Below are positions 39,870 through 62,092 of a DNA stretch of 64,000 bases, piece after piece. The notes under the pieces were generated by a model. That model saw only the letters and a list, made by a program, of their open reading frames with translations. It ran no database searches and was not told where the DNA came from. The DNA is taken from contig NZ_JASTLC010000001.1 of NCBI RefSeq assembly GCF_030499575.1, positions 10,232,155 through 10,296,154 of the forward strand, read 5' to 3'. Source of the stretch: Streptomyces sp. DG2A-72. Its GTDB lineage: Bacteria > Actinomycetota > Actinomycetes > Streptomycetales > Streptomycetaceae. Both the position numbers and the translations under genes were made by a program. Every line of letters begins with the position of its first letter. The first letter of the stretch is position 1.

Positions 39870-39938
39870 CTGCCGCCTGGGTGGTGCGGGTTTCGGGGAG
39901 GGGGTTGTGGGTCTGTGTGTGGGTGGTCGGTGGCATGG

Positions 39939-39973
39939 GTGTGGGGTGTGGGGTGTGGGGTGTGGGGTGTGGG
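39939..39973 (+). repeat. Five tandem GTGTGGG units
   Basis: GTGTGGG is repeated five times without interruption, directly after the broken cpaF gene. The strand is strongly G/T rich, with G runs suitable for quadruplex formation. Confidence 0.85.
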
Positions 39974-40003
39974 GTTGGTTGTGTAGGTCGGTCAATGGCT
40001 TGC

Positions 40004-40031
40004 AAAGAACCGTCCAACCGGTATATTTCTT
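40004..40031. promoter_or_regulatory. Candidate gamma-butyrolactone receptor box upstream of the monooxygenase
   Basis: AAAGAACCGTCC (40004-40015) followed by AACCGGTATATTTCTT (40016-40031) has the imperfect two-fold pattern A/T-rich, CCG, CGG, A/T-rich, that ArpA/ScbR-type receptors recognise. AAGAA and TTCTT are mirror ends. It lies about 100 bases before the start chosen for the monooxygenase. The in-frame ATG at 39995 would put the site inside the gene. Confidence 0.5.
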
Positions 40032-40032
40032 G

Positions 40033-40090
40033 TTCGTTGGTGGGTTCGTTGGTGGGTTCGTTGGTGGGTTCGTTGGTGGGTTCGTTGGTG
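40033..40090 (+). repeat. Tandem 12-base repeat (TTCGTTGGTGGG)
   Basis: Four full units of TTCGTTGGTGGG and a partial fifth follow each other. If translated in the monooxygenase frame they give Ser-Leu-Val-Gly repeats, which are not part of the enzyme fold. They more likely form the 5' leader. Confidence 0.85.
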
Positions 40091-40129
40091 TGGGTGGTTG
40101 GGGGGGTGGGGTTGGTGTGGGGTTTGCGG

Positions 40130-41722
40130 GTGGAGGTGGTGGTTGTGGGTGGGGGGCCGGTGGGGTTGGTTCTTGCTGCGGAGTTGGCGGGGTTTGGGGT
40201 GCGGACGGTGGTGGTGGAGTCGGCTGTGGGTGTGTCGGGGTGGCCGAAGGCGACGACGTTGCATGCGCGTGCGGTGCAGTGTTTGGTGAGGCGTGGTTAT
40301 TTGGGGGGGTTGGTGGGTGGGGGTGGTGTGGGGGGTGGTTTGTTTCATTTTGGGGGGATTCCGGGGTTGGTGATTTCGGTTCCTGCTGGGGAGCCGGAGG
40401 CGGTGTTGAAGTGTTCGCAGGAGGAGTTGGAGCGTCATTTTGAGTGGCGGGCGCGGGTGGCTGGTGCGTGGGTTTTGCGTGGGTATCGGGTGACGGGGGT
40501 GTGGCAGGGGCGGGAGGGGGTGGGTGTTACGGCGCAGGGTCCGGGGGGGCGGGTGGGGTTGGTGGGTGGGTATTTGGTGGGGGCGGATGGTGCGCGCAGT
40601 GTGGTGCGGGAGCAGGGGGGTTTTGTGTCGCGGACGTGTCCGGCCACGGTGTCGGCGTTGGCGGGTGATGTTCGTGTGGTGGGGGGTGGGGTTCTTGAGG
40701 CGGGGTGGCATCGTACGGAGCGGGGGTGGATTGTTGCCAAGGAGGTGGCGGGGGGTGTGGTGCGGTTGCGGACTCTTAATTGCGGGGGTGCGCATGTTGA
40801 GCGTGGTGTGCCGCTGACTTTGGAGGAGTTGCGGCGGGAGGTGTGCTGGATCGCGGGGCGGGATGTCGCGTTGGGGGAGGGGAGGTGGTTGAGCAGGTTC
40901 AGTGATTTCTCCCGGTTGGCGGTGTCCTACCGCAGGGGGCGGATCTTTTTGGCGGGGGATGCGGCGCATGTGCATTTCCCGATCGGTGGGCAGGGGCTGT
41001 CTACCGGGCTGCTGGATGCGGTCAACCTCGGCTGGAAGCTTGCGTTTACGGTGCGTGGCGGTGCGGGCGCGGGGCTGCTGGACACCTATGATGCCGAGCG
41101 CCGGCCTGCTGCTCAGCGGGTTATCGACAGTGCGCGGGCCCAGTTGGCTCTGATGCGGCCGGGGCCCGAGTTCGACCGGCTGCGTGTGCTGTTCGGCCGG
41201 TTGCTGGCCGGTGGCGGGGAGGGTGGCGCGCTGGCGGCCATGGTCAGTGCCCAGGACACGGTTCTTCCGCCGCGTACCGCGCGGCCCTCTCCGTGGGAGG
41301 GAAGGTTTTTGCATAATGTCCAGCTGGCTACCCGTGAGGGTCCTGCTGATGTGATCGGGCTGCTGCGTGAGGGCCGGCCCCTGCTGCTGCTGTTCGGTGA
41401 GCGGGGCGGCCGTTATCTTCGGCAGGCGCGGGGCTGGGGCTCGCTGCTGCGTATCGTGCGGGCGGCGCGGACGCCGCAGCTGCCGTGCGAGGCGCTGCTG
41501 GTGCGGCCCGACGGGTATGTCGCCTGGGGGCCGGGGGGTGAGGGGCTTGAGGCGGCGCTGGGGCAGTGGTTCGGCGGCCCCCCGGACACCCCGGACACCC
41601 CGGACACCCCGGTCACCCCGGTCACCCCGGTCACCCCGGGCATCCCGGCTGCCCCGGCTGCCCCGGCTGCCGGGGGTGCCCGGGGTGTGGTGGCGGGGGG
41701 TCTGGCTGGCTGGGGTGTCTAG
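40130..41722 (+). CDS. FAD-dependent aromatic monooxygenase
   Basis: This is a 530-residue group A flavin hydroxylase. VEVVVVGGGPVGLVLAAELA is the dinucleotide-binding motif at the start, DGARSVVREQGG is the DG motif, and FLAGDAAHVHFPIGGQGLSTG is the second FAD motif (GD). The C-terminal thioredoxin-like domain ends in a Pro-rich tail coded by 9-base repeats. I chose GTG 40130, which begins the Rossmann motif; GTG 40115 or ATG 39995 are alternatives. Such enzymes act on aromatic polyketides, or in butyrolactone-type signal synthesis by Baeyer-Villiger-like steps. The first 1 kb has few C on the coding strand, unlike the rest. Its stop overlaps that of the convergent tetR1. Confidence 0.85.
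   Translation: MEVVVVGGGPVGLVLAAELAGFGVRTVVVESAVGVSGWPKATTLHARAVQCLVRRGYLGGLVGGGGVGGGLFHFGGIPGLVISVPAGEPEAVLKCSQEELERHFEWRARVAGAWVLRGYRVTGVWQGREGVGVTAQGPGGRVGLVGGYLVGADGARSVVREQGGFVSRTCPATVSALAGDVRVVGGGVLEAGWHRTERGWIVAKEVAGGVVRLRTLNCGGAHVERGVPLTLEELRREVCWIAGRDVALGEGRWLSRFSDFSRLAVSYRRGRIFLAGDAAHVHFPIGGQGLSTGLLDAVNLGWKLAFTVRGGAGAGLLDTYDAERRPAAQRVIDSARAQLALMRPGPEFDRLRVLFGRLLAGGGEGGALAAMVSAQDTVLPPRTARPSPWEGRFLHNVQLATREGPADVIGLLREGRPLLLLFGERGGRYLRQARGWGSLLRIVRAARTPQLPCEALLVRPDGYVAWGPGGEGLEAALGQWFGGPPDTPDTPDTPVTPVTPVTPGIPAAPAAPAAGGARGVVAGGLAGWGV
41582..41635 (+). repeat. Six tandem 9-base repeats coding Pro-Asp/Val-Thr
   Basis: Three CCGGACACC and three CCGGTCACC units code (PDT)3(VTP)3-like text at the C-terminus of the monooxygenase, followed by similar CCGGCTGCC units coding Ala-Ala-Pro. 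The array can vary in length without breaking the frame. Confidence 0.8.
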
Positions 41723-42378
41723 GGCCGGCGTGCGGATGTGGCCAGTGCCTGAAGTTCCTCGAAGACCGCTGCGCCGCGGCTCTCGGTGAGGTCTGCGGAG
41801 GTCAGGACGGAGGACAGGACCACGCTGGGCAGCAGGTGCCGCAGCAGGGCGGCGACCCTGTTCAGCAGGTCCTGGTAGTTGCACATGGCCTGGGACATGG
41901 CCTGGACGCCGGCGAAGGAGCCCACCATGACGTCGGCGGTTTCCTTCGGCTGGACGTGCGGGAGCAGTTCGCCTTGGGTCTGTGCCTTTTCCAGCAGTTC
42001 GGTGACGACCTCGGCCCAGCGTACGAAGGGGCCGCTGCGGTCGAGTCCGTGGGCCTGCTGGTCGAGTGAGAGCCGCACGCCTGCCCGTACCATCGGGTCG
42101 GTCTGCAGCCGGTATGCCTGCAGCAGCACGGTGTCCACGATCTGCTGGATCTTGCAGGCGCGGTCGGGGATGGGCAGCTGCTGGTCCTGCTCGTGGAGCA
42201 CTCCTTGGGCCAGGTGTTCCTTCGAGGGGAAGTGGAAGTACAGGGCCCCCTTGGTCACGTCGGCCGCGGCGAGGATCTCGCTGATGGTCGCGGCCTGGTA
42301 GCCGCGTTCCTCGAAGATCCTGGCCGCGGCGACGAGGATCGTTCGCCGTGTCCGGATTGCCCGGTCCTGCTTGACCAT
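41719..42378 (-). CDS. Gamma-butyrolactone receptor-type TetR repressor
   Basis: This 219-residue protein begins MVKQDRAIRTRRTILVAAAR, and the helix-turn-helix reads ISEILAAADVTKGALYFHFPSKEHLAQGVL, the exact style of ArpA/ScbR/BarA receptors. The ligand-pocket tryptophan of the family is visible in FVRWAEVVTELL. It is expected to repress target promoters until a butyrolactone-type signal binds. The ATG at 42378 follows GGAGGCCGAC. A receptor-box-like sequence 40 bases upstream suggests autoregulation, and its neighbours are a monooxygenase, a reductase and an AfsA-type synthase, a standard signalling set. Confidence 0.9.
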   Translation of the reverse strand: MVKQDRAIRTRRTILVAAARIFEERGYQAATISEILAAADVTKGALYFHFPSKEHLAQGVLHEQDQQLPIPDRACKIQQIVDTVLLQAYRLQTDPMVRAGVRLSLDQQAHGLDRSGPFVRWAEVVTELLEKAQTQGELLPHVQPKETADVMVGSFAGVQAMSQAMCNYQDLLNRVAALLRHLLPSVVLSSVLTSADLTESRGAAVFEELQALATSARRP

Positions 42379-42415
42379 GTCGGCCTCCTCCAATCGATGA
42401 GCCCGGAGACCCCTT

Positions 42416-42439
42416 ACAAAAAAACCGTCTAGTTTGTAT
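42416..42439. promoter_or_regulatory. Candidate receptor box upstream of tetR1
   Basis: ACAAAAAAACCG (42416-42427), then TCT, then AGTTTGTAT (42431-42439) resembles the autoregulatory elements of butyrolactone receptors, with A/T-rich arms around ACCG-N-CTAGTTT. It lies 38-61 bases before the tetR1 start codon, where it can overlap the promoter. Confidence 0.6.
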
Positions 42440-42510
42440 CTTACAGGTAGTCGCGTGGTGCGCAGCCCTCCGGTCGTGCCGAATTCAAGGAATGGCGTGA
42501 AGCCTGCAGG

Positions 42511-42545
42511 CGGACGACGGACGACGGACGACGGACGACGGACGA
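42511..42545 (+). repeat. Five tandem CGGACGA units
   Basis: CGGACGA repeats five times between tetR1 and the divergent reductase gene, followed by two GGGACGA variants. It occupies the region where the reductase promoter should be. Confidence 0.85.
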
Positions 42546-42640
42546 GGGACGAGGGGGCTGTGGGGCGCGGCAGGTGCGGTCGGTGTGTGGCAGGCAGGCG
42601 GGCATGCGGGCAGGCATGCGGGTGGGTGGGGAGGGGTGTG

Positions 42641-43555
42641 ATGATTCTCGTGACGGGGGCCACCGGGACGGTGGGCCGGGAGGTGGTCCGGCTGCTGGGG
42701 GCGGATGTGGGCGTTCGTGTCATGGCCCGGGATCCGGCACGGGTGAGGGGGGCGTCTGAGACTGCGGAGATAGTTGCGGGGGACTACAGGGATCCGCGGT
42801 CGCTTGGCCGGGCTCTGGCGGGGGTTCGCACGGCGTTCCTGGTGACCGGTGATGTCGCCGGCGGTGACGATGTCCGGTTCATTCGTGCTGCGCAGATGGC
42901 CGGTGTCGGGCGGGTGGTGAAGCTCTCGGCGGCCGCTGTTGTTGACCGCTGTGCCGATGACCTGGTCACCCGGTGGCAGCGTGCCGGTGAGGAGGTGTTG
43001 TGTGCCTCGGGTCTTCAGTGGACTGTGCTGCGTCCGCGCGCGTTCATGTCCAATACGCTGTCCTGGGCGCGGTCCGTGCGCTGCGAAGGCGTGGTCCGGG
43101 CGCTGTATGGGTCGTCTGTCAATGCCTGCGTGGATCCCCGGGACGTCGCGGAGGTGGCCGTGCGCGTCCTGACCGAGGACGGGCACGCGGGAGGGGCCTA
43201 CACGCTGACCGGGCCGGAGGCGCTCAGTGCGGCTCAGCAGGTGGATCAGCTCGGCCGGCTGCTCGGGGTGCCGTTGCGCTTGGAGGAACTGAGCCCGGGC
43301 CAGGCGCGCCTCGCGCTGGGCCGGCGCTATCCGGTGCCGGTCGTCGAGGCGCTGCTGCAGAGCGCGGAACGTCAGCGGGCGGGAGCCAAGGCGCAGGTTC
43401 AGGACACGGTGCGCGCGGTGACCGGCCGCCCGGCCAGAACCTTCCGTGTCTGGGCGAAGGACCATCTGGCGGCGTTCGTGCCCGGCGCGGCGGATGAGGC
43501 GGGGCAGTCGCCGCGCCGGGCGGGTCATGGCACGGGCCGCTGGCTCACTGGGTGA
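42641..43555 (+). CDS. NmrA-like NAD(P)-binding reductase
   Basis: The 304-residue protein is an atypical short-chain dehydrogenase. MILVTGATGTVGREVVRLLG is the Rossmann motif, RVMARDP the cofactor-specificity turn, VKLSAAAVVD the strand 5 region, and WTVLRPRAFMSN the substrate-side block. The normal YxxxK pair is absent, as in NmrA-type proteins. It starts at ATG 42641 behind GGGGAGGGGTGTG. Its position between the receptor gene and the AfsA gene suggests a step in signal-molecule synthesis, like the reductases found near other afsA homologues. Its C-terminal 35 codons lie in a 161-base tandem duplication. Confidence 0.8.
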   Translation: MILVTGATGTVGREVVRLLGADVGVRVMARDPARVRGASETAEIVAGDYRDPRSLGRALAGVRTAFLVTGDVAGGDDVRFIRAAQMAGVGRVVKLSAAAVVDRCADDLVTRWQRAGEEVLCASGLQWTVLRPRAFMSNTLSWARSVRCEGVVRALYGSSVNACVDPRDVAEVAVRVLTEDGHAGGAYTLTGPEALSAAQQVDQLGRLLGVPLRLEELSPGQARLALGRRYPVPVVEALLQSAERQRAGAKAQVQDTVRAVTGRPARTFRVWAKDHLAAFVPGAADEAGQSPRRAGHGTGRWLTG

Positions 43556-43756
43556 GGCAGGCCATGGTGACGGTGGAGCGGGTCACGAGCCGTGCCGGAA
43601 CTTTCGGTGTCTGGGCGATGGGCCGTGTGGCGGTGTTCGCGTCCGGCGCGGCGGATGAGGCGGGGCGGCCGCCGCGCCGGGCGGGTCATGGCACGGGCCG
43701 CTGGCTCACTGGGTGAGGGGGGCCATGGTGACGGTGGAGCGGAACACGAGCTGCCC
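43435..43756. repeat. 161-base tandem duplication across a convergent gene end
   Basis: Two units offset by exactly 161 bases share most positions (for example GTGTCTGGG at 43446 and 43607, CGGATGAGGC at 43491 and 43652, GTGACGGTGG at 43567 and 43728). Unit 1 codes the end of the reductase; unit 2 holds the last codons of the AfsA-type gene on the other strand. Each unit thus carries a copy of both gene ends. Confidence 0.85.
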
Positions 43757-44695
43757 TTCCTGGTGTCCGGTCACGAGCACGGACTGCGGCCGGTCCGTGT
43801 CCGTGCCGGGCGCAGGGCGCGCTTCGATCAGGCAGGGCGTGTGCAGTTCGGCGTAGCGCTTGAACTCGCTGGTGATGTCCAGGGGGATGACCGGGCGCCC
43901 CGCGGTGGCGGCGGTGGCCTGGCGGGCGGCCTCGAGCAGCACCATGCCCGGTACGTGGTCGGTGGGGTGGTCGAAGAGGACGGGGTGGCGGGTGTCGACC
44001 CTGAGCTGCCAGGAGTTGGGCTGCCCGATGGGGGACAGGACGACGTCCATGGGGGAGACCCGGCCGACGTCCTGGGGTGCTATCGGGGCGGTGAGGGGCA
44101 GCGCGGGCCGCCCCCCGTCCAGCTGCTGGGTGCGCAGGCGGTTGTATGTCGCCGGCTGCACACAGGTGAAGTCGGCGCGTCCCGTTGCGGCGATGTGAGG
44201 GCCCCGGCGGATGGTGACGTTGTAGTGGAACCCTGCCAGGTTGCCGCGGCGCCACTTGACGTCGTGGCAGGTGATGTCCAGCTCGAGCGAGGCGGGTGCG
44301 CTGCCGACCCGCAGGTGCGCGGGCCGGACGTCGATCGCGAGGTCCCACATGAGGAAGTGGTGGCCGAGCGGGACGCCGTACTCGGTGTGCGCCAGGAGGA
44401 TGCCGGCCTGGCGGATCGTTTCGGCAGCGATCAGCGGGTCGTGGCAGTCGTCCACGTTGACGAAGAAGCTGTGTCCGCGGGGCCACTGGGCCTCGACGCA
44501 GAAATGATCGTCGTCCATGCGCGCCCAGTCGGTCAGCATGACCTCGGCGACGCTCGCGCGGTGGACGAATTCCTTGGGGACCGTGGTGGTCAGGGACCGG
44601 TGGGGCAGGGCACCGGTCCCGGTAAGGGCCGTGTCGCTCCCGGTGTGTGCCGCGCTGCGTATCGCGCGGTTCCTGTGGAACGTGCTCGCAGACAT
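43706..44695 (-). CDS. AfsA-type butyrolactone signal synthase
   Basis: This 329-residue protein has the AfsA double hot-dog architecture. The first domain runs from VPKEFVHRASVAEVMLTDWA through HSFFVNVDDCHDPLIAAETIRQ, and the second contains VDTRHPVLFDHPTDHVPGMVLLEAARQA with a repeat of the same D-H-x-x-D-H-x-P-G-M core. AfsA enzymes join a beta-ketoacyl-ACP with dihydroxyacetone phosphate, the first committed step to gamma-butyrolactones. The ATG at 44695 follows AGGGGGAATC, and a receptor box lies 60-85 bases upstream. It faces the reductase gene tail to tail. The product could also be a butenolide or methylenomycin furan; the sequence cannot decide. Confidence 0.92.
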   Translation of the reverse strand: MSASTFHRNRAIRSAAHTGSDTALTGTGALPHRSLTTTVPKEFVHRASVAEVMLTDWARMDDDHFCVEAQWPRGHSFFVNVDDCHDPLIAAETIRQAGILLAHTEYGVPLGHHFLMWDLAIDVRPAHLRVGSAPASLELDITCHDVKWRRGNLAGFHYNVTIRRGPHIAATGRADFTCVQPATYNRLRTQQLDGGRPALPLTAPIAPQDVGRVSPMDVVLSPIGQPNSWQLRVDTRHPVLFDHPTDHVPGMVLLEAARQATAATAGRPVIPLDITSEFKRYAELHTPCLIEARPAPGTDTDRPQSVLVTGHQEGQLVFRSTVTMAPLTQ

Positions 44696-44754
44696 GATTC
44701 CCCCTGAGCCGCTGTGGCTTGAATGTAAGTGGCAGAGCCCTCAGGAGAGCGAAG

Positions 44755-44779
44755 ATACATACCACCCGGTTTAATTTCT
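44755..44779. promoter_or_regulatory. Candidate receptor box upstream of the afsA homologue
   Basis: ATACATACCACC (44755-44766) followed by CGGTTTAATTTCT (44767-44779) fits the receptor-box pattern with ACATACC and GGTTT half sites. Repression of the synthase by its own receptor is known for this family. The rest of 44696-45030 contains no gene that I can support. Confidence 0.6.
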
Positions 44780-45030
44780 AGAAGGAACGCGGCACTCCGC
44801 CCGGCGCGAAAAGGAGCGGCGCATTCCCCGATGTGCGGGTGATCGCCTGGCGGCCTGTGGCCCGCCCGGGACCCGCAGGTCGTCCCCGCACGCCGGGCCG
44901 TGTGACGGCTGGTGTCTGCCGGGGCGGGTCAGGGGCGGCCCGCCGGCGCACCTCAAGTGATCTCAAAGCCATTCTTGAGCGGCCTGCCCGACCGTGTCCC
45001 TAAGGCCCGAGGTGAAGGGGGAGCGGTCGG

Positions 45031-45219
45031 ATGGACGGGAGGGAAGTCCTGATCAGGGTGGAGCGGGGCCGGCCCGACGAGGCGGAACTGGCCGCCGTGG
45101 TCGCGGTGCTGCTCGCCGTGCGGGCGCCCGCACGCCAGGCGCCCGGGCAGCCGCCGGTCGCCGGGATGCGGTGGTGGCGCACGCCGGACGCCTACGCGGC
45201 GCCCGACGGCTGGCACTGA
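45031..45219 (+). CDS. Acyl-CoA carboxylase epsilon subunit
   Basis: This 62-residue protein has the layout of actinobacterial AccE/PccE: a first strand LIRVERGRPDEAELAAVVAVL, an Ala/Pro-rich linker, and the WRTPDAYAAPDGWH end (usually W-x-x-x-x-R-x-P-x-x-W). The epsilon subunit binds and activates the beta subunit encoded next. It starts at ATG 45031 after AAGGGGGAG. 133 bases separate it from accB, and that gap contains its own receptor box, so the two may be transcribed separately. Confidence 0.75.
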   Translation: MDGREVLIRVERGRPDEAELAAVVAVLLAVRAPARQAPGQPPVAGMRWWRTPDAYAAPDGWH

Positions 45220-45271
45220 GGCCGGGGGCCGGCGCTGAGGCCGGCGGCGGCCCCCGCAATACGTACAATAG

Positions 45272-45289
45272 AAACCGCGCGTGCGGTTT
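45272..45289. promoter_or_regulatory. Palindromic receptor box upstream of accB
   Basis: AAACCGC (45272-45278) and GCGGTTT (45283-45289) form a perfect 7-base inverted repeat with a 4-base centre, flanked by ATAG and GTTAT. It is the most symmetric of the receptor-box-like sites in this window and ends 63 bases before the accB start codon. Confidence 0.65.
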
Positions 45290-45352
45290 GTTATTATGCT
45301 GTCACGATCCGGGACGGGGCCTGAACGGTCTTGTCCCAGGAAGGCACCTGAC

Positions 45353-46945
45353 ATGGCGATGACGACTGCCCTGGCACCGGCCGGACCGGGGCCCACCGAT
45401 ATCCGCGGGCGGGTGGCGGAACTGCACGGCATCCGTGAGCAGGCGCTGGCCGGTCCCGGTGGGAAGGCGACCGCGGCGCAGCACGCCAAGGGCAAGCTGA
45501 CCGCGCGGGAGCGGATCGGGCTGCTGCTGGACGCGGGTTCCTTCCGGGAGGTCGAGCAGCTGCGCCGGCACCGGGCGACCGGTTTCGGGCTGGAGATGAA
45601 CAAGCCGTACACGGACGGTGTGATCACCGGCTGGGGGACGGTCCAGGGCCGTACGGTCTTCGTGTACGCGCACGACTTCCGCATCTTCGGCGGTGCGCTG
45701 GGCGAGGCCCACGCCACGAAGATCCACAAGATCATGGACATGGCGCTTGCCACCGGGGCGCCGCTGGTGTCGCTGAACGACGGCGCGGGGGCCCGTATCC
45801 AGGAGGGTGTCTCGGCGCTTGCCGGGTACGGCGGCATCTTCCAGCGCAACACCAGGGCTTCGGGTGTGATCCCGCAGATCTCGGTGGTGCTGGGCCCGTG
45901 CGCGGGCGGCGCGGCCTACAGCCCGGCGCTGACCGACTTCGTGTTCATGGTCCGTGAGACCTCGCAGATGTTCATCACCGGCCCGGACGTGGTCAAGACG
46001 GTGACCGGTGAGGAGATCACGCAGAACGGCCTGGGCGGCGCGGACGTGCACGCCGAGACCTCCGGTGTGGCCCACTTCGCCTACGACGACGAGGAGACGT
46101 GCCTGGCGGAGGTGCGCTACCTGCTGTCGATGCTCCCGCAGAACAACCGGGAGGCCCCGCCGAGGGCGCTGGGCGGTGACCGGGCCGAGAGGCGCTCGGA
46201 GGTGCTGCTGGACCTGGTGCCGGCCGACGGCAACCGGCCCTACGACATGGCCGCCGTCATCGAGGAGATCGTCGACGACGGCGAGTACCTCGAGGTCCAC
46301 GAGCGCTGGGCCCGCAACATCATCTGCGCGCTGGCCCGGCTGGACGGCCAGGTCGTCGGCATCGTCGCCAACCAGCCGCAGTCCCTGGCCGGGGTCCTGG
46401 ACATCGAGGCGTCGCAGAAGGCCGCACGCTTCGTCCAGATGTGCGACGCCTTCAACATCGCGCTCGTCACCCTGCTGGACGTCCCCGGATTCCTGCCCGG
46501 CGTCGGCCAGGAGCACGGCGGGATCATCCGGCACGGCGCGAAGCTGCTGTACGCCTACTGCAACGCGACCGTGCCGCGGATCTCGCTGATCCTGCGCAAG
46601 GCCTACGGCGGCGCGTACATCGTGATGGACTCGGCGTCCACCGGCGCCGACCTGACCTACGCCTGGCCGACCAACGAGATCGCCGTGATGGGCGCCGAGG
46701 GCGCGGCGGGCGTCATCTTCCGCCGGCAGATCGCCGAGGCGGAAGACCCCGAGGCCATGCGGCACAAGATGGTCAAGGAGTACAGGACCGAGCTCATGCA
46801 CCCCTACTACGCGGCCGAGCGCGGCCTGGTCGACGACGTCATCGACCCGGCCGCCACCCGCGAGGTCCTCATCCGCTCCCTGGCCATGCTCCGCAGCAAG
46901 CACGCCGACCTGCCCTCCCGCAAGCACGGCAATCCCCCGCAGTAG
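45353..46945 (+). CDS. Acyl-CoA carboxylase beta (carboxyltransferase) subunit
   Basis: The 530-residue protein is a complete PccB/AccB-type carboxyltransferase: HAKGKLTARERIGLLLD at the start, LNDGAGARIQEGVSALAGYG and GPCAGGAAYSPALTDFVFMV for the acyl-CoA oxyanion hole, DVPGFLPGVGQEHGGIIRHG and RKAYGGAYIVMDS for the biotin side. The residue after MV in the DFVFMV segment decides substrate preference in this family, but I would not call acetyl- versus propionyl-CoA from reading alone. The ATG at 45353 follows AGGAAGG. No alpha subunit is present in the window, so it must share one encoded elsewhere. In the cluster it would supply malonyl-CoA for the polyketide and for the NphT7-type enzyme. 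Confidence 0.9.
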   Translation: MAMTTALAPAGPGPTDIRGRVAELHGIREQALAGPGGKATAAQHAKGKLTARERIGLLLDAGSFREVEQLRRHRATGFGLEMNKPYTDGVITGWGTVQGRTVFVYAHDFRIFGGALGEAHATKIHKIMDMALATGAPLVSLNDGAGARIQEGVSALAGYGGIFQRNTRASGVIPQISVVLGPCAGGAAYSPALTDFVFMVRETSQMFITGPDVVKTVTGEEITQNGLGGADVHAETSGVAHFAYDDEETCLAEVRYLLSMLPQNNREAPPRALGGDRAERRSEVLLDLVPADGNRPYDMAAVIEEIVDDGEYLEVHERWARNIICALARLDGQVVGIVANQPQSLAGVLDIEASQKAARFVQMCDAFNIALVTLLDVPGFLPGVGQEHGGIIRHGAKLLYAYCNATVPRISLILRKAYGGAYIVMDSASTGADLTYAWPTNEIAVMGAEGAAGVIFRRQIAEAEDPEAMRHKMVKEYRTELMHPYYAAERGLVDDVIDPAATREVLIRSLAMLRSKHADLPSRKHGNPPQ

Positions 46946-47019
46946 CACCACGCCCACGGGACGCGGGACGCCGGTGCGGCGGCGGCCCCCGGTCTCCCGC
47001 TCTGTGTAGGAGAGTGCAC

Positions 47020-47709
47020 ATGGTCAAACAGGAGCGAGCGGTGCGCACCCGGCACGCGCTGATCCAGGCCGCGGCCGCGGTGTTCGCCGAGGAAGGCTTC
47101 GTCACCGCCTCGCTGAGCACCATCAGCGGCCGGGCCGGTGTCAGCAACGGTGCGCTGCACTTCCACTTCGCCAGCAAGAACAGGCTCGCCGAAGCGGTCC
47201 GGGCCCAGGCCGCCGAGGCCCTCGGGCGGATCACCGAGACGGCGCGGGCCCGCCACGGCGACTCCCTGCAGACGGTGGTGGACGCCACGCACGAGCTGAT
47301 GGACAGCCTCGCCCGCGACATCGTGGTCCGCGGCGGCTTCGAACTCGCCGGCGACGCCGCGCGCCGGGGCGGGCCCTCCCTGCGCAGGCAGTGGCAGCGC
47401 TGGGTGGAGGACAGCCTGCGCCGGGCCGAGCGCAGCGGCGCCCTGGCCCAAGGGGTGTCCGCCGCGGACGGCGCCCGCGTCATCGTCGCCGCGACCGCGG
47501 GCTTCGAGATCCTCGGCGGCGAGGACGTCTCCTGGCTCTCCCGCCGCAGCGTCACCCGCTTCTGGGAGGTCCTGCTGCCGCTGCTCGCCGGCCGGCAGAA
47601 CCTGGACGGGCTGGTGTGCGCGGGCTCGAACCTGCTGACCGCCGTCCCCCCGCAGGAGCAGTCCGCGCGGGCCAGCCCCCCAAATTTGCATACCAAGAGG
47701 TCTGTTTAA
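47020..47709 (+). CDS. Second receptor-type TetR regulator (possible pseudo-receptor)
   Basis: This 229-residue protein starts MVKQERAVRTRHALIQAAAAVF and has the helix-turn-helix LSTISGRAGVSNGALHFHFASKNRL, clearly related to tetR1 and the ArpA/ScbR family. The pocket tryptophan is in RQWQRWVEDSLRRAE. Clusters of this type often carry a second receptor homologue that senses antibiotics or no butyrolactone at all (ScbR2/JadR2-like); the more diverged N-terminus is consistent with this. The ATG at 47020 follows GTAGGAG, 74 bases after accB, and the two may be co-transcribed. Confidence 0.85.
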   Translation: MVKQERAVRTRHALIQAAAAVFAEEGFVTASLSTISGRAGVSNGALHFHFASKNRLAEAVRAQAAEALGRITETARARHGDSLQTVVDATHELMDSLARDIVVRGGFELAGDAARRGGPSLRRQWQRWVEDSLRRAERSGALAQGVSAADGARVIVAATAGFEILGGEDVSWLSRRSVTRFWEVLLPLLAGRQNLDGLVCAGSNLLTAVPPQEQSARASPPNLHTKRSV

Positions 47710-47710
47710 G
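47688..47710. promoter_or_regulatory. Weak receptor-box-like sequence at the end of tetR2
   Basis: GCATACCAAGAGG (47688-47700) and TCTGTTTAAG (47701-47710) resemble ATACC-N-GGTTT-type half sites, 265 bases before the SARP gene. It overlaps the tetR2 stop codon. The match is poorer than that of the site at 47873. Confidence 0.35.
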
Positions 47711-47742
47711 ACCTGGGCCTCAGTTGCATCTTCCCCGCTACC

Positions 47743-47761
47743 CCTTGAGGATCCCTCAAGG
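47743..47761. terminator. Small hairpin after tetR2
   Basis: CCTTGAG (47743-47749) and CTCAAGG (47755-47761) pair around GATCC, 34 bases after the tetR2 stop. It may terminate the acc-tetR2 transcript or serve as an operator. Confidence 0.4.
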
Positions 47762-47869
47762 ATGCCCCGCGAACGCCTTGAGTTCCACTGGAGATCGAGC
47801 ATCCGGCCTGCTCGGGGGACGCATGACCTCGACTCGGAGCGGAAGAGATACAGGATGCGCGGTTTGATA

Positions 47870-47899
47870 TTGACATACCGCACGTGCTGTTTTTAGTCT
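47870..47899 (+). promoter_or_regulatory. Promoter of the first SARP gene with receptor box in the spacer
   Basis: TTGACA at 47870-47875 and TAGTCT at 47894-47899 have an 18-base spacer. The spacer and -35 edge contain ACATACCGCACG (47873-47884) and TGCTGTTTTTA (47885-47895), an ArpA-type box centred on CACGTG. An additional GCGGTTT half site lies at 47859-47865. A receptor bound here would block RNA polymerase directly. The start codon is 76 bases downstream of the -10 hexamer. Confidence 0.6.
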
Positions 47900-47974
47900 T
47901 GGCAGGGAGCCGGACTGGCCTTTGCTGGCGGCCACGGACTGACCGGAGCTCGTGCATAAGACAGGGGAGATCGC

Positions 47975-48817
47975 GTGGACATCAAGGTACTGGGCGCACT
48001 GGCCGTCACGGAGAACGGCGTCTCCATCACGCCGACGGCCCCCAAGCCGCGCCAGGTTCTGGCTCTGCTGGCACTGCACGCCGACCGGGTGGTGCCCGTC
48101 TCCGCCCTCATCGAGGAGCTGTGGGGCCTCACCCCGCCGCGCAGCGCCCGCACCACCCTGCAGACCTACGTCCTGCAGCTGCGGGAACTCATCGCCGTGG
48201 CCCTGGAGCAGGACGGCCACGGCGGTGCGGACGGACCCGGCGCACCGCGCACCGCCAAGGACGTGCTGGTGACGATGCCCGGCGGCTATCTGCTGGCCAG
48301 CGGCGGCGGACCCAGTGACGTCCGCCTGTTCGAGCGTCTTGCGGGCATGGGATACCGGGCCATGGACGCGGGTGACTTCCCCGGCGCCGCACGCCAGCTG
48401 CGCGAAGCGCTCACGCTGTGGTCCGGCACCGCCTTCGCGGACGTGCAGGTCGGGGAGCAGCTGGAGACGGAGATCAAGCGTCTTGAGGAGAGCCGGCTGT
48501 GCGCTCTTGACCAGCGTATCGAGGCCGATCTGCGGCTGGGACGCCACCGTGAACTGCTGGCCGAGCTGACGGTTTTGGTGAACCGTTACCGCACGCACGA
48601 GAGCCTGCACGGCCAGTTCATGCTCGCGCTGTACCGCTCGGGGCGGCGCGGAGAGGCCCTGGAGGCCTATCAGCGGCTGCGTGCCACGCTCGTACGCGAC
48701 CTCGGTCTGGAGCCGTCCGCGGGGCTGCAGCGCCTGCAGCGGTCCGTCCTGACGGCCAGCCCCGAGTCCACGGCGGCACCTCACGCGGCCAAGGAGCGGC
48801 TCGTGTCGACGAGCTGA
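47975..48817 (+). CDS. SARP-family transcriptional activator 1
   Basis: This 280-residue protein is a short Streptomyces antibiotic regulatory protein: an OmpR-like winged helix (MDIKVLGALAVTENG, PKPRQVLALLALHADRVV, LIEELWGLTPPRSARTTLQTYVLQLR; about residues 1-95) and a bacterial transcriptional activator domain (LFERLAGMGYRAMDAGDFPGAA to RDLGLEPSAGLQRLQR; about 110-260). It binds heptameric direct repeats and recruits RNA polymerase. It starts with GTG 47975 after AGGGGAG. The receptor box in its promoter makes it the likely link between signal and biosynthesis. Confidence 0.92.
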   Translation: MDIKVLGALAVTENGVSITPTAPKPRQVLALLALHADRVVPVSALIEELWGLTPPRSARTTLQTYVLQLRELIAVALEQDGHGGADGPGAPRTAKDVLVTMPGGYLLASGGGPSDVRLFERLAGMGYRAMDAGDFPGAARQLREALTLWSGTAFADVQVGEQLETEIKRLEESRLCALDQRIEADLRLGRHRELLAELTVLVNRYRTHESLHGQFMLALYRSGRRGEALEAYQRLRATLVRDLGLEPSAGLQRLQRSVLTASPESTAAPHAAKERLVSTS

Positions 48818-49616
48818 GTGCCCGCGCCCGCCCCCGGGGGCCTGCGCGCAGCGGGTGGCACCCGGTGGCCGGCGCCCCGGAACGCGGCAGGCGCCGGCCC
48901 CCGAGGCCGCCGAGCCGTCCACGCCGCCCTGATCCGCGGGCGCGCCGCCGCCCCTGGTGCACGGCCCGAACACGCCGGCGCCCCTGGGGGATCCGGCAGT
49001 GGCCCGGCAGCGCGGCCCGCACGGACCGTACGCCGGCTCTCCCGCCACGGCCGCCACCGTCTGCGCCGTCACGGCCCTGAGCGCGCAGAAGGACACCGCA
49101 GCCCGCCCCGCCCTGCCCCGGCCCGGCCCGCCCGCCTTGCCGCCGGTGCCGTCCCCCGGCCGCCGAAGCCGCGGTGCACACCGTGGCCGGCTTTCGCCGC
49201 CCTGCCCCCGGACGGCCGGCCCTCCCGCCGCCCGGGCCGCTGATCACGCATCCGGGCCCTCCCCCCACCGGCTGCGCCGGAGCCGCGCGCTTCCCCTGAC
49301 GCGGGGACAGACGGCACCCGTCCCCGCCGGGCATGCCCGGCGGGCGGAGCGGCCGGGTTCCCGCATTTCGGTTTCTCTGCAGCAAAACTCCACGGGAGCG
49401 GGGACCGGAAAGAGTATTCCGTGATACGCCGGACGCGTCCGGTGCCAGGAGGCGTCCGCTATTCCTGAGCGGATCAATTGTGCGGATCCAGGTGTTCCGC
49501 TGAAACATCCTCGAGCTCTGGTCGAAGAAAGGAGGGTGTGGCGCGATTTTGGCTAGTGTGCTGACGGTGACGGAATTCAGCCATGAGAGGAACTCGGCGA
49601 GCTACGGAGGAAAGCA
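48818..49616. other. Very GC-rich intergenic stretch between the two SARP genes
   Basis: No gene with motifs or a convincing start is seen; the open frames have arginine/proline-rich text typical of noncoding high-GC DNA. The last 120 bases hold the probable promoter of the second SARP gene. Confidence 0.45.
49511..49528 (+). promoter_or_regulatory. Possible SARP heptamer repeats upstream of SARP 2
   Basis: TCGAGCT at 49511 and TCGAAGA at 49522 are spaced by 11 bases, the period of SARP binding sites, about 90 bases before the gene. TAGTGT at 49555-49560 could be a -10 hexamer, but the distance to the repeats is larger than usual. This is a guess from spacing. Confidence 0.3.
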
Positions 49617-50438
49617 GTGAAGATTCAGGTTCTGGGTCCGTTGAGTGCCGAGGTCAATGGGGGATCGATTGTCCCGACGGCCGGTAAGCCGCGGCAGATT
49701 CTTTCCCTGCTGGCCCTCTACCCGGGACGGGTGATGCCCGTTCCCATGCTCATGGAGGAAATCTGGGGAACCGAGCCGCCGCAGAGCGCGCTCACCACGC
49801 TGCAGACCTACATCCTCCAACTGCGCCGGCGCCTGGGCACCGCGATGGGGCCCGACGCCCCCGGCACGGCCAAGGAAGTGCTGGCCACCCGCCACGGCGG
49901 CTATCTGCTGCAGATACCGGCCGAGAGCGTCGACGTGCACGAGTACGAACGCATGGTCACCGAAGGCAGGTCGGCTTTCGAGACCGGGGACGACGCGACC
50001 TCGGCCGCCCGTTTCCGGCAGGCGCTGGAGCTGTGGCGCGGCCCCGCGCTGGTCGACGTACGGGTCGGACCGATCCTCGGGATCGAGGTCATGCGCCTGG
50101 AGGAGAGCCGGCTCGGCACCGTCGAGCGGCGGATCGACGCCGATCTGCGGCTCGGCCGGCACGCCGAACTCATCGCGGAACTCGCCGAGCTGACGGCGCG
50201 CTACCCGCAGCACGAAGGGCTGCACTCGCAGGCCATGGTGGCCATGTACCGGTCGGGGCGGCAGGCATCGGCCCTCGCCGTCTACCGGCAGCTGCGCAAC
50301 CGGCTGATCGACGAACTGGGCGTCGAGCCCTCGCCGCAGGTGCAGCGGCTGCACCAGGCCATGCTGGCCGTCGACCCGCAACTGGACGTCGTCGCCGGAG
50401 TGCGGCGCAGCTCGACCTTCGATCTTTACGCCGCCTGA
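49617..50438 (+). CDS. SARP-family transcriptional activator 2
   Basis: The 273-residue protein has the same two-domain layout as SARP 1: MKIQVLGPLSAEVNGGSIVP, GKPRQILSLLALYPGRVM and EEIWGTEPPQSALTTLQTY in the winged helix, then a BTAD region (YERMVTEGRSAFETGDDATSA to NRLIDELGVEPSPQVQRLHQ). It begins with GTG 49617, 7 bases after GGAGG. No receptor box is seen upstream, so it may be switched on by SARP 1 in a cascade and activate the genes to the right. Confidence 0.92.
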   Translation: MKIQVLGPLSAEVNGGSIVPTAGKPRQILSLLALYPGRVMPVPMLMEEIWGTEPPQSALTTLQTYILQLRRRLGTAMGPDAPGTAKEVLATRHGGYLLQIPAESVDVHEYERMVTEGRSAFETGDDATSAARFRQALELWRGPALVDVRVGPILGIEVMRLEESRLGTVERRIDADLRLGRHAELIAELAELTARYPQHEGLHSQAMVAMYRSGRQASALAVYRQLRNRLIDELGVEPSPQVQRLHQAMLAVDPQLDVVAGVRRSSTFDLYAA

Positions 50439-50995
50439 GGCCGGCCGGAGCGGGGGCCTGCGCCGTCCTCAGTGCCTATGGGTGAGCCCGGATTCTGAGA
50501 GGCCTGGTGGCCTGAGCCCGGTGGGAATTTGCGAGGAGGCCGGGCGTGTGTGCCCGGGGCTGCGGCCGGCGGCTGCAGCCCGGCCACACGCTCTGACACC
50601 CTGCATGGCCCGGCAGTGTGGGCGCGCGCACTGTCCACGTCCCGAGCCGGCGCGGCCCTTTTGCCGCCCGGGGCGGCGGGCCACCTGCAGGGCGGGTGAG
50701 CCGTGCGCGAGGCGGTGCACCGCCAGGTTTCGAACGGGCCACCACCGCACCCGCGGATTCCCCGGGCGGGAGGGGGCACTGCCCGAAGGCTGCGGTCATC
50801 TTCTCGGCCCTACCGACCGCAGGAGCATCGGATACCGGCTCTGAACGGTGGAGCCGCCCGGTTCCGCGCTCGCTGCGTCCTGTGCAGGTCGTGTCTCGTT
50901 GTGCCGGGAACACGCCGCGGGCTGGTCCGCCTCGTGCCTCACGCAGCGTTCGTACCAGATGCCCGTGAGGCGTCAGTTGCGTCGTACGGCCGCTG
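50439..50995. other. Intergenic stretch without a supported gene
   Basis: No frame with motifs, a good start or consistent codon use is seen on either strand. It separates the regulatory island from the frameshift-rich biosynthetic part. Confidence 0.45.
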
Positions 50996-51886
50996 TTACT
51001 TCACCGGCTCCGGCTCCGGCGTGCTCTGCGTCTTGGCCGAGTCCTGCGGATCGGCCGGGGTCTTCACGCAGTCCAGCAGGAGCTGGGCGACGTCGACGAC
51101 CTGGATGGACTTCTTCGCCTTGCCGTCGTTCTTCTTGCCGTTGACGGAGTCGGTCAGCATCACGAGGCAGAACGGGCAGGCGGTGGACACGATGTCCGGG
51201 TTCACCGACAGCGCCTCGTCGACCCGCTCGTTGTTGATGCGCTTGCCGATGCGCTCCTCCATCCACATCCGCGCGCCGCCGGCGCCGCAGCAGAAGCCGC
51301 GCTCCTTGTGGCGGTGCATCTCCTCGTTGCGGATGCCGGGACGCTGGCGATGATCTCGCGCGGGGGCGTGTAGATCTTGTGACCGGGGTGATGGGGACCA
51401 GCCTGCCCGCATCCACGAGGTGCTGGAGCAGCTGGGTGTGGTGGATGACCTCGTAGTCGCCGCCGAGCTGCGGGTACTCGTTGCCGATCGTGTTCAGGCA
51501 GTGCGGGCAGGTGGCGACGATCTTCTTCGAGGACTTCGGCTTCTTGGTGCTCTCGTCCTCGTCGTCCTCGCCGAACGCCATGTTCAGCGCGGCCACGTTC
51601 TCCATGCCGAGCTCCTGGAACAGCGGCTCGTTGCCCAGGCGGCGGGCGGAGTCACCGGTGCAACCAGTGCGCCACACCGACGACGCCCCACCGGTTCATC
51701 CGGGTGTGGCCGAGGAACTCCTTCACCAGGGCCGCGCCGCGCCGGCAGGGGTGGTCGGTCCGGGCGCGGGCCGGCACCGGCTGTCCGAGCTTGAAGTACC
51801 GGATGAACTCGCCGATGGCGCGTGCGAACAGCGCCGAGCCGACGACGGCAAGGGAGGAGCGCAACAATGATCGCGGCGAGTTGCAT
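50996..51886 (-). pseudogene. Fe-S oxidoreductase (GlpC/HdrD-like), internal deletion and frameshifts
   Basis: Read leftwards: MQLAAIIV from ATG 51886, a frameshift, then FARAIGEFIRYFKLGQPVP and VKEFLGHTRMNRWGVVGVAHW (the membrane-anchored start of the approximately 750-residue actinobacterial protein). The middle is deleted, and LGNEPLFQELGMENVAALNM with CPHCLNTIGNEYPQLGGDYE (first CCG-type cysteine motif) follow. After another frameshift near 51410 come GFCCGAGGARMWMEERIG and STACPFCLVMLTDSV (second cysteine motif) to the stop at 50996. Intact copies are chromosomal housekeeping genes, so this is a stray, broken copy. Confidence 0.7.
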
Positions 51887-52293
51887 GGGCGGGCTCCCCG
51901 TACCGGCGAGAACGGGCCTACTGGGCGGTAACTTGTGGGCTCGGTCGGAGAGTACCCACTTCGGACTCCGCAAGGTGGCCAGGCCGCGGTGATCGGTGTC
52001 GCGGGCCCCGCCCCGGCTGCGGCGGTTCCGGCAGCCCGGCTGCACGCCCCAAGGGCCTGCACGGCCAGGGGAGTTGCGGTGCGCAGCGGTGCGGTGCCCG
52101 CCGGGCCGGCAGGTCTGGCACCGCTGCGGGCTCCAGAGGCAATCGAGGGTCTTTCACCTTGCCCTGCACCCGGGGGCTGTGCGCGGCTGCTCGCCTTCGG
52201 GCGGGCCTCAGCCCGCTCTCCAGGGATGCTTGAGGCTGTCCGGCGATTCTCGAACCGCACCCCTGCGCCCCAGGGGGAGGCCAAGGAGGATGC
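51887..52293. other. Intergenic stretch without a supported gene
   Basis: Some 400 bases between divergent genes. I see no coding signature. It should hold the promoter of the thioesterase gene, but no clear hexamers stand out. Confidence 0.4.
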
Positions 52294-53046
52294 CATGCCG
52301 GACGACCAGCCAGTGCGGCTGCACTGTTTCGCGCACTCCGCGGGGGTGTCTCCGTCTTCGACGGCTGGGCGGAGCGCGCCGGACCCGGGGTGGAGGTCAG
52401 GGCGCTGTGCCTGCCGGGGGGTGAACGGCGGCGGTCCGAACCCCGGGTGACCACGCACGAGGCGCTGCTCGCCGATGTGCTGCCCCAGTTCACCGACCCG
52501 TGCTCGGGCCCCTACGTCCTGTACGGGCACGGTCTGGGCGCCATGGTCGCCCTCACCGTGACGCGCGCCCTGCACGAGGCGGGGATGCCCGGCCCCGCGC
52601 TCCTTGCCGTCAGTGCCTGCCCGCCGCCCCACGTGCCCTGCGCGCTGGCGGATGTCCGCGGGGCGAGTGATGCCGAAGTGCTGCACATCCTGGGCGGCAA
52701 CGGCGCCGTGCCGCCCGGCAGCGACGAAGGGATCTGGCTGCGGGCCATGCTGCCGGTGCTCCGCGCCGACCTGGAGCTGGCAAAGGCCCTGGAAGAGGCG
52801 GCCCGCACCCCCTCGTCCAGGGGTCCGCTGAGCACACCGGTCCTCGTCCTCGCCTCGCAGGCGAACCCGCTTGCGCCGCCTGCGATCACCGACGGCTGGT
52901 GGCAGTGGACCGAGGGGCCCGTCCGCTCGCGCACCGTCCCCGGACGTCACTTCTTCGTACGCGGCGGCCGTGAACTGCCGCGGCTGCTGGGCCGGGCCTG
53001 CCGCGTCGCCGGCCGCCTCGCCCGCGAGCGCGTGCCCGTCGGCTGA
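52294..53046 (+). pseudogene. Type II thioesterase-like hydrolase, frameshifted, nucleophile Ser replaced
   Basis: ATG 52294 reads VRLHCFAHSAGV, then one base is off in a run of five G near 52350 and the next frame continues DGWAERAGPGVEVRALCLPG to the stop at 53046. This is the alpha/beta-hydrolase fold of editing thioesterases of polyketide and peptide synthases. The elbow that is normally GHSMG reads YGHGLGAMVAL, so the nucleophilic serine is Gly. The terminal histidine is present (PGRHFFVRGG). If the base calls are right the protein would be inactive as a thioesterase. Confidence 0.65.
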
Positions 53047-53234
53047 GCCCGCGCTCCGGCCACCCGGTGCGGGCAGGAGCGCCTGCGCCCTCGGAATCAC
53101 AGTGCGATGCACGTCAGCCGGCGGATACGGGGGCAGCGCTTCACCCGCTCATGCTCCAGCGGTTTTCATCCGGCCGTCCGAATTCTGTTCGCGTCCCCGT
53201 CCCGTCCGCGTAAGGCAAGGAGAGAGGTGTCCAG

Positions 53235-54188: not shown

Positions 54189-54358
54189 CCGCGGCCGGGC
54201 GCGGGCGGCCGCGCCCAAAAGCAGCCCTGCGCACGGGAAACGGCAGCGGTGTGCTGCGGGAATCCTTGGAAAGGAGTCGAGCCGCGGCACAAAGGAAAGC
54301 AGTGCCTCGCCGGGCACCCCGTACCGTGGTTTTTGCCCGGACATGGCGAGGAGCTGCA

Positions 54359-54724
54359 ATGTTCAATGACATAGGCGCGCTTGAGCTGGTGATGCTCGCG
54401 ATTCTTGCCGTGCTCATCTTCGGCCCGGACAAGCTGCCGAAGGTAATTCAGGACGCGGCCCGGATCATCCGGAAGGTCCGTGCCTTCTCGGACCAGGCCC
54501 AGCAGGACATCCGCGAGGAACTCGGCCCCGAGTTCAAGGACGTCAACTTCGAGGACCTGAATCCCAAGACGTTCATCCGCAAGCAGCTGGGCGACGACGA
54601 ACTGGGGCTCAAGGAGATCCGTAACGGCTTCGACCTGCGCACACAAGCGGCAGAAGTCGCCGACGCGGTGAACGGCCAGGAGAGCGAGTCGCCCCGCAGG
54701 CCCGGACCCCCCTCGCCGCCGTAG
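54359..54724 (+). CDS. tatB: Twin-arginine translocase subunit TatB
   Basis: This 121-residue protein has an N-terminal transmembrane helix (IGALELVMLAILAVLIFGPDKLP), the Gly-Pro hinge of TatA/B proteins, and a long amphipathic helix (IQDAARIIRKVRAFSDQAQQDIREEL) followed by ELGPEFKDVNFEDLNPKTFIRK, characteristic of actinobacterial TatB rather than TatA. It is the third Tat component; tatA and tatC lie 6-7 kb downstream on the other strand. Tat genes are normally chromosomal housekeeping genes, so a set inside a biosynthetic region is notable. Confidence 0.85.
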   Translation: MFNDIGALELVMLAILAVLIFGPDKLPKVIQDAARIIRKVRAFSDQAQQDIREELGPEFKDVNFEDLNPKTFIRKQLGDDELGLKEIRNGFDLRTQAAEVADAVNGQESESPRRPGPPSPP

Positions 54725-58882: not shown

Positions 58883-58979
58883 GCCGTCGGGAGCCTCATG
58901 CACGCGCCGGCGTCATGGCTCGGTGGCTCGTACAAGCCCGGCCGCCACCCCACGCGAGCCGGCCGGACAGGAGGATCGG

Positions 58980-61624: not shown

Positions 61625-61665
61625 CCCACGTTCCTCCGTCGTGCGGCGGCCGTCGGAACGCGGCG

Positions 61666-61949: not shown

Positions 61950-62092
61950 GTGCCACTTCCTTCTTGCCGAAGCAGGGATCTGTTGCTCATGTGGAGGTAC
62001 CGGCCAAATGGAGCACGACGAGAGGAGAATATGATGCGAGGAAGGCCGTCGGGTGGCCGTGCAACTGTCTCGAGCCGTTTTCCAGGGCCTCT

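Follow-up and report, generated by a model that had tools for sequence, protein, structure and literature searches.

A putative autoregulator island beside a probable chlorinated meroterpenoid gene cluster in Streptomyces sp. DG2A-72

Introduction

The last 64,000 bases of contig NZ_JASTLC010000001.1 of Streptomyces sp. DG2A-72 (here C1; positions 10,232,155 to 10,296,154, assembly GCF_030499575.1), hereafter called the window, contain a compact group of signalling genes built around an AfsA-type synthase. We interpret this group as a cluster-situated, SagA/SagR-like autoregulator island that controls the adjacent cluster for a chlorinated naphthoquinone meroterpenoid, which extends onto a second contig, C3, and we put the probability of this interpretation at about 75%. 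The gene families, receptor-box-like palindromes, gene order, repeat setting and promoter copies described here were established computationally. The island is a widespread Streptomyces control module in a new setting. Its new and unusual feature is the presence of copies of one of its promoters in front of two chloroperoxidase genes, seen only here among the genomes and plasmids compared.

In the mechanism that we propose, AfsA and an NmrA-like reductase would make a butyrolactone-type signal. Without signal, the receptor TetR1 would occupy boxes before tetR1/nmrA, afsA, accB-tetR2, SARP1 and the gene of an FAD-dependent monooxygenase (FMO); build-up of the signal would release these TetR1-held promoters, and the activators SARP1 and SARP2 would then switch on the cluster. 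The carboxylase subunits AccB and AccE, with an alpha subunit encoded elsewhere, would raise the level of malonyl-CoA for a type III polyketide synthase (PKS). TetR2, probably co-transcribed with accB, would later shut the output off, and two vanadium chloroperoxidase genes would have joined the regulon through the copied SARP1 promoter.

Genes of the island

The original prediction, made from the sequence letters, had named AfsA, NmrA-like, FMO, two receptor-type TetR, two SARP and acyl-CoA carboxylase genes between 39,995 and 50,438, and profile searches agree with this set. The FMO, of the aromatic-ring-hydroxylase type (40103..41722, forward strand; PF01494, 197 bits; PF21274, Rng_hyd_C, 69 bits), has an approximate start, which we place at about 40103-40130 rather than at 39995 because the domain (from about 40130) begins at residue 84 of the long open reading frame (ORF). 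On the reverse strand follows tetR1 (41719..42378), encoding an ScbR-type receptor (NF041196, 230 bits, cut-off 150) whose closest structure in PDB is AvaR1 (187 bits). The NmrA-like NAD(P)-binding reductase gene lies on the forward strand at 42641..43555 (ORF 42434-43555; PF13460, NAD_binding_10, 75 bits; PF05368, 56 bits; start approximate) and is convergent with afsA (43706..44695, reverse strand), which encodes a 329-residue AfsA/ScbA-type signal synthase matching PF03756 in two stretches (166 bits). The 3' ends of nmrA and afsA are spanned by a tandem duplication of about 160 bp (43430..43751), in which 43430-43590 and 43590-43751 are 89.5% identical.

The remaining genes are all on the forward strand. 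The 62-residue product of 45031..45219 has no match of its own in the profile library, and we call it the acyl-CoA carboxylase epsilon subunit, AccE; it shares 76% identity with the epsilon subunit annotated in strain NBC_00564, whose gene occupies the same place. The beta subunit (carboxyltransferase) gene accB (45353..46945; PF01039, 670 bits) encodes a protein that scores 950 bits against PDB 7w5u, an 'Acetyl-CoA carboxylase complex, beta-chain', the next chain reaching 635, and that carries the motif GGAYIVM, as do 7w5u and 1xnw. We take isoleucine instead of aspartate at the PccB 422 position as the mark of an acetyl-CoA enzyme, and 1xnw to be an engineered variant of an aspartate enzyme. 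AccB is probably a beta subunit of the acetyl-CoA type, which forms malonyl-CoA. No alpha subunit was seen among the island genes; the genome has seven PF02785 matches, one of them within the repeat discussed below (C3:54373). The gene of TetR2, a ScbR-like protein (47020..47709, start approximate; NF041196, 180 bits), has the same direction as accB and lies 74 bp behind it, both genes standing behind one box, so that malonyl-CoA supply and late shut-off would probably be switched on together. The island ends with SARP1 (47975..48817; PF03704, 151 bits; PF00486, 33 bits) and SARP2 (49617..50438; PF03704, 160 bits), the latter without a box.

Receptor-box-like palindromes

Boxes were sought with a combined model of a 22-bp palindrome trained on 80 upstream regions of relatives (AccB, SARP1 and TetR1 promoters), with the window left out; locus L065, matches below 55% identity, matches starting past query residue 25 and pieces shorter than 120 bases were also excluded. 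The model's nine highest-scoring places in the entire 64 kb (42420, 42416, 47873, 47846, 45270, 40005, 44753, 44757 and 47688, the last at the 3' end of tetR2) all lie inside the island, and Markov sequence would be expected to give 0.01-0.02 sites of at least 15 bits per 10.5 kb. Boxes had been claimed earlier before FMO, tetR1, afsA, accB and SARP1; palindromes are predicted at all five, and SARP1 has two. They lie upstream of FMO (40005..40026; 18.6 bits with the combined model, 14.5 with an AccB-only and 12.9 with a SARP1-only model), in the divergent tetR1/nmrA promoter (42418..42441; 28.9 bits, AfsA-only 26.5), upstream of afsA (44753..44776; 15.2 bits, TetR1-only 16.7), upstream of accB (45270..45291; 26.7 bits, SARP1-only 27.2) and, with a step of 27 bp, upstream of SARP1, where the distal palindrome (47846..47867) scores 20.8 bits (AccB-only 15.5) and the proximal one (47873..47894) 28.2 bits (AccB-only 22.5).

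Among relatives, with the combined model, sites of at least 15 bits precede AfsA in 22/24, NmrA in 19/20, TetR1 in 30/30, SARP1 in 26/26 and AccB in 20/24 cases; the model was trained on the AccB, SARP1 and TetR1 regions, and the NmrA region is the same as that of TetR1. The corresponding numbers are 9/18 for FMO and 6/16 for TetR2, and no box was found before SARP2 (0/13) or AccE (0/4) at this threshold. In the random control for a separate 15-bit scan, made with a model trained on TetR1 promoters alone and drawn from loci that hold true boxes, 32 of 2000 270-mers reached this score.

One box motif for all promoters, weakened by a scan with a TetR1-only model at 15 bits, was replaced by models each trained on the relatives' promoters of a single type (1% shuffle thresholds, 3.2-6.5 bits). 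At these thresholds the AfsA-only model detects all TetR1 promoters (30/30) and the TetR1-only model all AfsA promoters (24/24), while the SARP1-only model detects 23/24 AccB and the AccB-only model 26/26 SARP1 promoters. Two spacings appear in the consensuses, AAACCGGCCGGTTT-like in the afsA and tetR1 promoters and AAACCG-N6-CGGTTT-like in those of accB and SARP1. The AfsA and AccB models are clearly apart (AfsA-only finds 2/24 AccB, AccB-only 3/24 AfsA promoters). Elsewhere the separation is incomplete: SARP1-only finds 22/24 AfsA and 30/30 TetR1 promoters, AccB-only 23/30 TetR1, TetR1-only 22/26 SARP1 and 12/24 AccB, and AfsA-only 14/26 SARP1. The two spacings possibly separate, incompletely, signal genes (afsA, tetR1) from output genes (accB, SARP1 and the chloroperoxidases). 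A further box-like site (C3:96633, 16.1 bits; locus L025) lies at the start of a gene for a SigH-like sigma factor (95896-96501, reverse strand).

Signal synthase, receptors and signal chemistry

The island has the features of an AfsA/ScbA-type system: an AfsA hot-dog domain, an ScbR-family gene one gene away, and boxes at the receptor and synthase promoters. In a midpoint-rooted tree of AfsA proteins gathered by similarity to the one in the window (12 of 62 inner branches open, several long rows flagged), the window protein falls into a 43-row group (support 98/96) together with AfsA of plasmid pSA3239. It therefore groups with what we take to be a functional synthase, as the original prediction implied, pSA3239 AfsA being the only characterised synthase in the tree. 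Its placement beside L068, L069 and L071 has support of only 84/87. As the record of pSA3239 has no gene names, we take its afsA gene to be sagA and the neighbouring receptor gene to be sagR. SagA/SagR is described as a gamma-butyrolactone autoregulator-receptor system controlling auricin regulatory genes (PMC8910723).

Isoelectric points tend to differ between receptors and pseudo-receptors, with exceptions, as described in PMC7480387 (SfbR, 6.54; SfbR2, 8.74). The values calculated for TetR1 (6.60) and TetR2 (10.77) fit this tendency and make TetR1 receptor-like and TetR2 pseudo-receptor-like; TetR2 is probably a pseudo-receptor of the ScbR2/AlpW type.

It is conceivable, at odds of roughly one to two, that AfsA makes a butenolide or some other signal instead of a gamma-butyrolactone; the regulatory logic would be the same and the name 'butyrolactone' wrong. 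AvaR1, the best solved relative of TetR1, is titled a butenolide-type autoregulator receptor (PMC5744401), and for the kinamycin system initial studies are described as predicting a signal other than gamma-butyrolactone (PMC7343708). Set against this is the SagA/SagR pair, taken as the closest described system, which PMC8910723 calls a gamma-butyrolactone system; the sequence alone is undecisive between the two.

SARP1-promoter copies before chloroperoxidase genes

Two NapH-type chloroperoxidase genes on C3 (C3:157331-158884, locus L028, and C3:147507-149072, locus L027) stand behind copies of the SARP1 promoter that include the box pair. Their upstream regions align over 181-203 bp, at 72-74% identity, to the SARP1 promoter and the first 17 or so codons of SARP1; the local alignments score 91.5 and 97.0, against 30.5 and 25.0 for the best among 100 shuffles. 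Both boxes are kept in each copy with the same 27-bp step (19.2 and 16.2 bits in one, 21.4 and 13.9 bits in the other). The chloroperoxidase gene in the window itself (ORF 20583-22550) has neither a box nor such a copy (score 24.0, shuffle maximum 34.0).

The same element was looked for in front of 28 chloroperoxidase genes, taken from 13 stretches in 9 genomes (strong ones among the 23 others with a match) and from 7 plasmid records out of the 8 in which chloroperoxidases were matched; several of these genes neighbour each other in one record, and their starts were inferred from alignments. A SARP1-promoter copy was found in 0/28 (best score 26.5, compared with 84.5 and 86.0 here), and an upstream box of at least 15 bits in two, L129 (20.0, plus a second of 12.0) and L135 (19.5). 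In a sample of 392 genomes of the genus that contains this one, the element is matched somewhere in 30 and is whole only in this genome, the best others covering at most about 170 of its 554 bases. Fifty-five plasmid records match the SARP1 promoter, and the best place listed for each coincides with a SARP gene, falls where no feature is listed or belongs to a record that has no annotation.

We give even odds to promoter capture, by which the SARP1 promoter, its box pair and the first SARP codons would have been copied before the two chloroperoxidase genes, so that chlorination would answer directly to the signal, in parallel to the SARPs. Somewhat less credit goes to the alternative that the copies are inert leftovers of recombination with no regulatory role. 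In favour of leftovers, some 500 bp separate the chloroperoxidase coding starts from the boxes, and about 17 codons in, the SARP-like frame of the copies no longer follows SARP1; the box pairs of the copies are nevertheless kept in sequence only 72-75% identical to the SARP1 promoter, which speaks for a role.

The adjacent biosynthetic region and its likely product

That a control island precedes biosynthetic genes had been proposed at the outset; such a cluster is present, and most of it lies beyond the window. Thioesterase and aromatase/cyclase genes follow SARP2 (52327..54188, forward strand; PF00975 and PF10604; 75% and 73% identical to their NBC_00564 counterparts) and come after the island in NBC_00564 too. 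The condensation-domain gene beyond them is one frame of 1109 codons on C3 and is broken into three pieces in the window, and C3 was therefore used to annotate the outer part. Further out, C3 carries six mevalonate-pathway genes and genes for a type III PKS, a cupin, a DegT aminotransferase, an adenylate-forming enzyme, a cytochrome b, a polyprenyl synthase, aromatic prenyltransferases and a P450. Most of these are 61-94% identical to the cluster on the NBC_00564 plasmid, one prenyltransferase 46%; phenazine queries from that cluster were unmatched on C3. Two further genes, whose homologues are annotated as an FAD/NAD(P)-binding protein and a member of the pcaB/adenylosuccinate-lyase family, we presume to be CreE- and CreD-like. 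TatA/B-like and TatC genes also lie within the region (window 54359-54724 and C3:190748-191701), and an annotated TatB adjoins an SRPBCC-family gene on the KMM 9044 plasmid as well.

Vanadium chloroperoxidases are encoded by two genes on C3, one of which matches NapH3 best (616 bits), and by one in the window (20586-22157, reverse strand), 18 kb inside the inverted-repeat boundary, which matches NapH1 best (842 bits). Upstream of the latter is a partial second chloroperoxidase frame (22300-22905, reverse strand; 49% match). The type III PKS, cupin, aminotransferase, adenylate-forming enzyme, mevalonate genes and prenyltransferases are shared with the tetrahydroxynaphthalene (THN) clusters of napyradiomycin and furaquinocin, and the chloroperoxidases of C3 and the window resemble NapH1 and NapH3. 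The combination of type III PKS, mevalonate genes, aromatic prenyltransferases and NapH-type chloroperoxidases found on C3 is what we take to define a napyradiomycin-type THN meroterpenoid cluster. The cluster therefore probably makes a chlorinated naphthoquinone meroterpenoid resembling napyradiomycin. Malonyl-CoA is described as the substrate of THN-type type III PKS (PMC7463872). A furaquinocin-like cluster, that of strain Je 1-369, is also reported to lie within a 160-kb inverted repeat (PMC9686526). Napyradiomycin-type clusters differ in that SARP1-promoter copies before chloroperoxidases were found only here; among the matches listed from openly licensed literature, no paper on butyrolactone control of such clusters appeared.

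The target of the island

The island could work as described and have as its main target another cluster in the same repeat, the meroterpenoid cluster being a mere neighbour; we consider this unlikely. The candidates would be the aromatase and condensation genes or a presumed modular PKS (C3:56810-82506; frames of 4535, 1801 and 2151 residues), judged by its size and internal repeats. The repeat also holds, adjoining this PKS, a second accB (C3:83956-85542), again with GGAYIVM, as well as a biotin-carboxylase-type gene and a second afsA (C3:121276-123289, locus L020; 40% identical). This afsA is divergent from another ScbR-type gene, and weak sites resembling boxes lie there at 121918 and 122257. 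The core module is, moreover, portable, since on pSA3239 it stands near type II PKS genes. In two relatives, however, plasmids carry the module close to genes for the mevalonate pathway and a type III PKS, with thioesterase-like, aromatase/cyclase and condensation genes after it, and C3 carries homologues of the NBC_00564 mevalonate/type III PKS cluster. Box pairs also precede the two chloroperoxidases of the meroterpenoid cluster, again in favour of that cluster as the target.

Several observations weigh against control of the meroterpenoid cluster by the island as we propose it. Given the second afsA/scbR pair and the presumed modular PKS, control could be shared or go elsewhere. Methionine-cycle genes follow the island in NBC_00564 and NBC_00019, and the metK, metF, ahcY and methyltransferase queries of NBC_00564 are unmatched on C3, where metH is matched by a stretch of 68 residues. 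With the TetR1-only model and a cut of 15 bits, accB boxes are found in 1/24 and SARP1 boxes in 9/26 relatives; the boxes are therefore not uniform, and more than one protein may bind them. The FMO box, kept in half of the relatives, differs in its right half on C3 (40022-40030). The C3 copy of afsA is out of frame, with a C-run two bases shorter, both ends of C1 sharing an identical intact frame, and the C-terminal tail of TetR2 also differs on C3; we could not tell whether these are assembly errors or real differences between copies. The chemistry of the signal, the binding of the receptors to DNA, the grouping of genes into operons, the direction of control and the product are all things that we infer.

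The repeat setting

From 39,877 outward, the window matches the left end of C1 (26746..2737) and C3 (212372..188362) in BLAST, with many gaps, and this part (39877..64000) probably belongs to a terminal inverted repeat with its inner boundary at 39877. The outermost 4 kb, an error-prone contig end, match less well (97.8% to C3 and 95.6% to the left end of C1). A strongly strand-biased, G/T-rich repetitive stretch lies just inside the boundary (39877-40100), and it is here that the three copies differ most within the island. Contig C3 has 212,372 bases; both ends of C1 stop inside it, it ends where the chromosome arms diverge, and telomere-like palindromes stand at its base 1 (seven inverted-repeat pairs in the first 420 bases, none in the last 420). 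The simplest reading is that C3 is probably the collapsed terminal inverted repeat of the chromosome, of about 212 kb. As the innermost genes of this repeat, the island genes are likely present in two copies.

That C3 is instead a linear plasmid in its own right, having swapped ends with the chromosome, as the linear plasmids bearing the module in relatives might suggest, is improbable, as telomere-like palindromes stand at one end of C3 only, its other end coincides with the point of arm divergence, both C1 ends stop inside it, and relatives of plasmid primase, ParA, ParB and RepL2 were not found on it (six queries). The window also holds an inverted pair of 1.16 kb (27661-28826 and 34961-36124; 98.7% identical), probably insertion sequences, one copy of which contains an rve-type integrase ORF (35216-36091).

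Related systems and frequency of the arrangement

The auricin plasmid pSA3239 of S. lavendulae has the same FMO-receptor-NmrA-AfsA order and orientation with two SARPs next to it (identities: FMO 59%, receptor 69%, NmrA 65%, AfsA 56%). It differs in that accB was not found in the 29 kb fetched, type II PKS genes are nearby and other ScbR-type genes lie elsewhere. Closer in content are the islands on linear plasmids of NBC_00564, NBC_00019 and S. camelliae, which share FMO, receptor, NmrA, AfsA, AccB, TetR2 and both SARPs, followed by a thioesterase-like hydrolase; besides being plasmid-borne, they differ in that NBC_00019 has three further genes in addition to the epsilon gene between afsA and accB, and in S. 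camelliae SARP1 precedes TetR2. The kinamycin alp cluster of S. ambofaciens is likewise duplicated in terminal inverted repeats and has the receptor AlpZ, AlpW, the activator AlpV and, nearby, an afsA-like gene and a creE-like monooxygenase gene, as described in PMC7343708 and PMC12181624. It has the minimal PKS alpABC in place of a type III PKS. AlpX, in an operon with alpW, may be a carboxylase subunit.

The original prediction had regarded this arrangement, with a precursor-supply enzyme embedded between the signalling genes, as unusual, a view that the comparisons do not sustain. The core occurs in the same order on pSA3239, and the coelimycin cluster of S. coelicolor is described as keeping the precursor-supply genes accA1, cpkP and cpkK with scbA, scbR, scbR2 and activator genes (PMC6667686). 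The latter differs in its core, cpkA-C instead of a type III PKS. It presumably differs also in having an scbB-type partner and another gene order.

Among 67 loci in species-representative genomes, 38 have an AfsA at least 50% identical, and accB (AccB at least 70% identical, within 2.5 kb) adjoins afsA in 21 of these; the other 17 have no AccB match of at least 70%, for some because the contig ends first (e.g. L033 and L065), and L064 and L065 come from the same genome. For plasmids, the best 60 of 161 AfsA records were crossed with the best 60 of 815 AccB records, with one best place each: 28 of the 60 listed AfsA records are also among the 60 AccB records, 10 with accB farther away and at least 18 of the 60 with accB within 10 kb of afsA. 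All eight genes (FMO, TetR1, NmrA, AfsA, AccB, TetR2, SARP1 and SARP2) are found in L040, L041 and L046 and on plasmids L100-L102. With accB and afsA so commonly neighbours in loci and plasmids, the arrangement is ordinary for such islands, and the idea that an accB between signalling genes is exceptional was dropped after these counts.

Significance

Next to a halogenated meroterpenoid cluster, Streptomyces sp. DG2A-72 thus carries a portable module for signal control, probably duplicated at the chromosome ends. Removal of TetR1 or TetR2, or addition of the signal, is suggested as a way to wake the cluster. If the copied promoters are active, they would be a clear case of tailoring enzymes recruited into a signal regulon.

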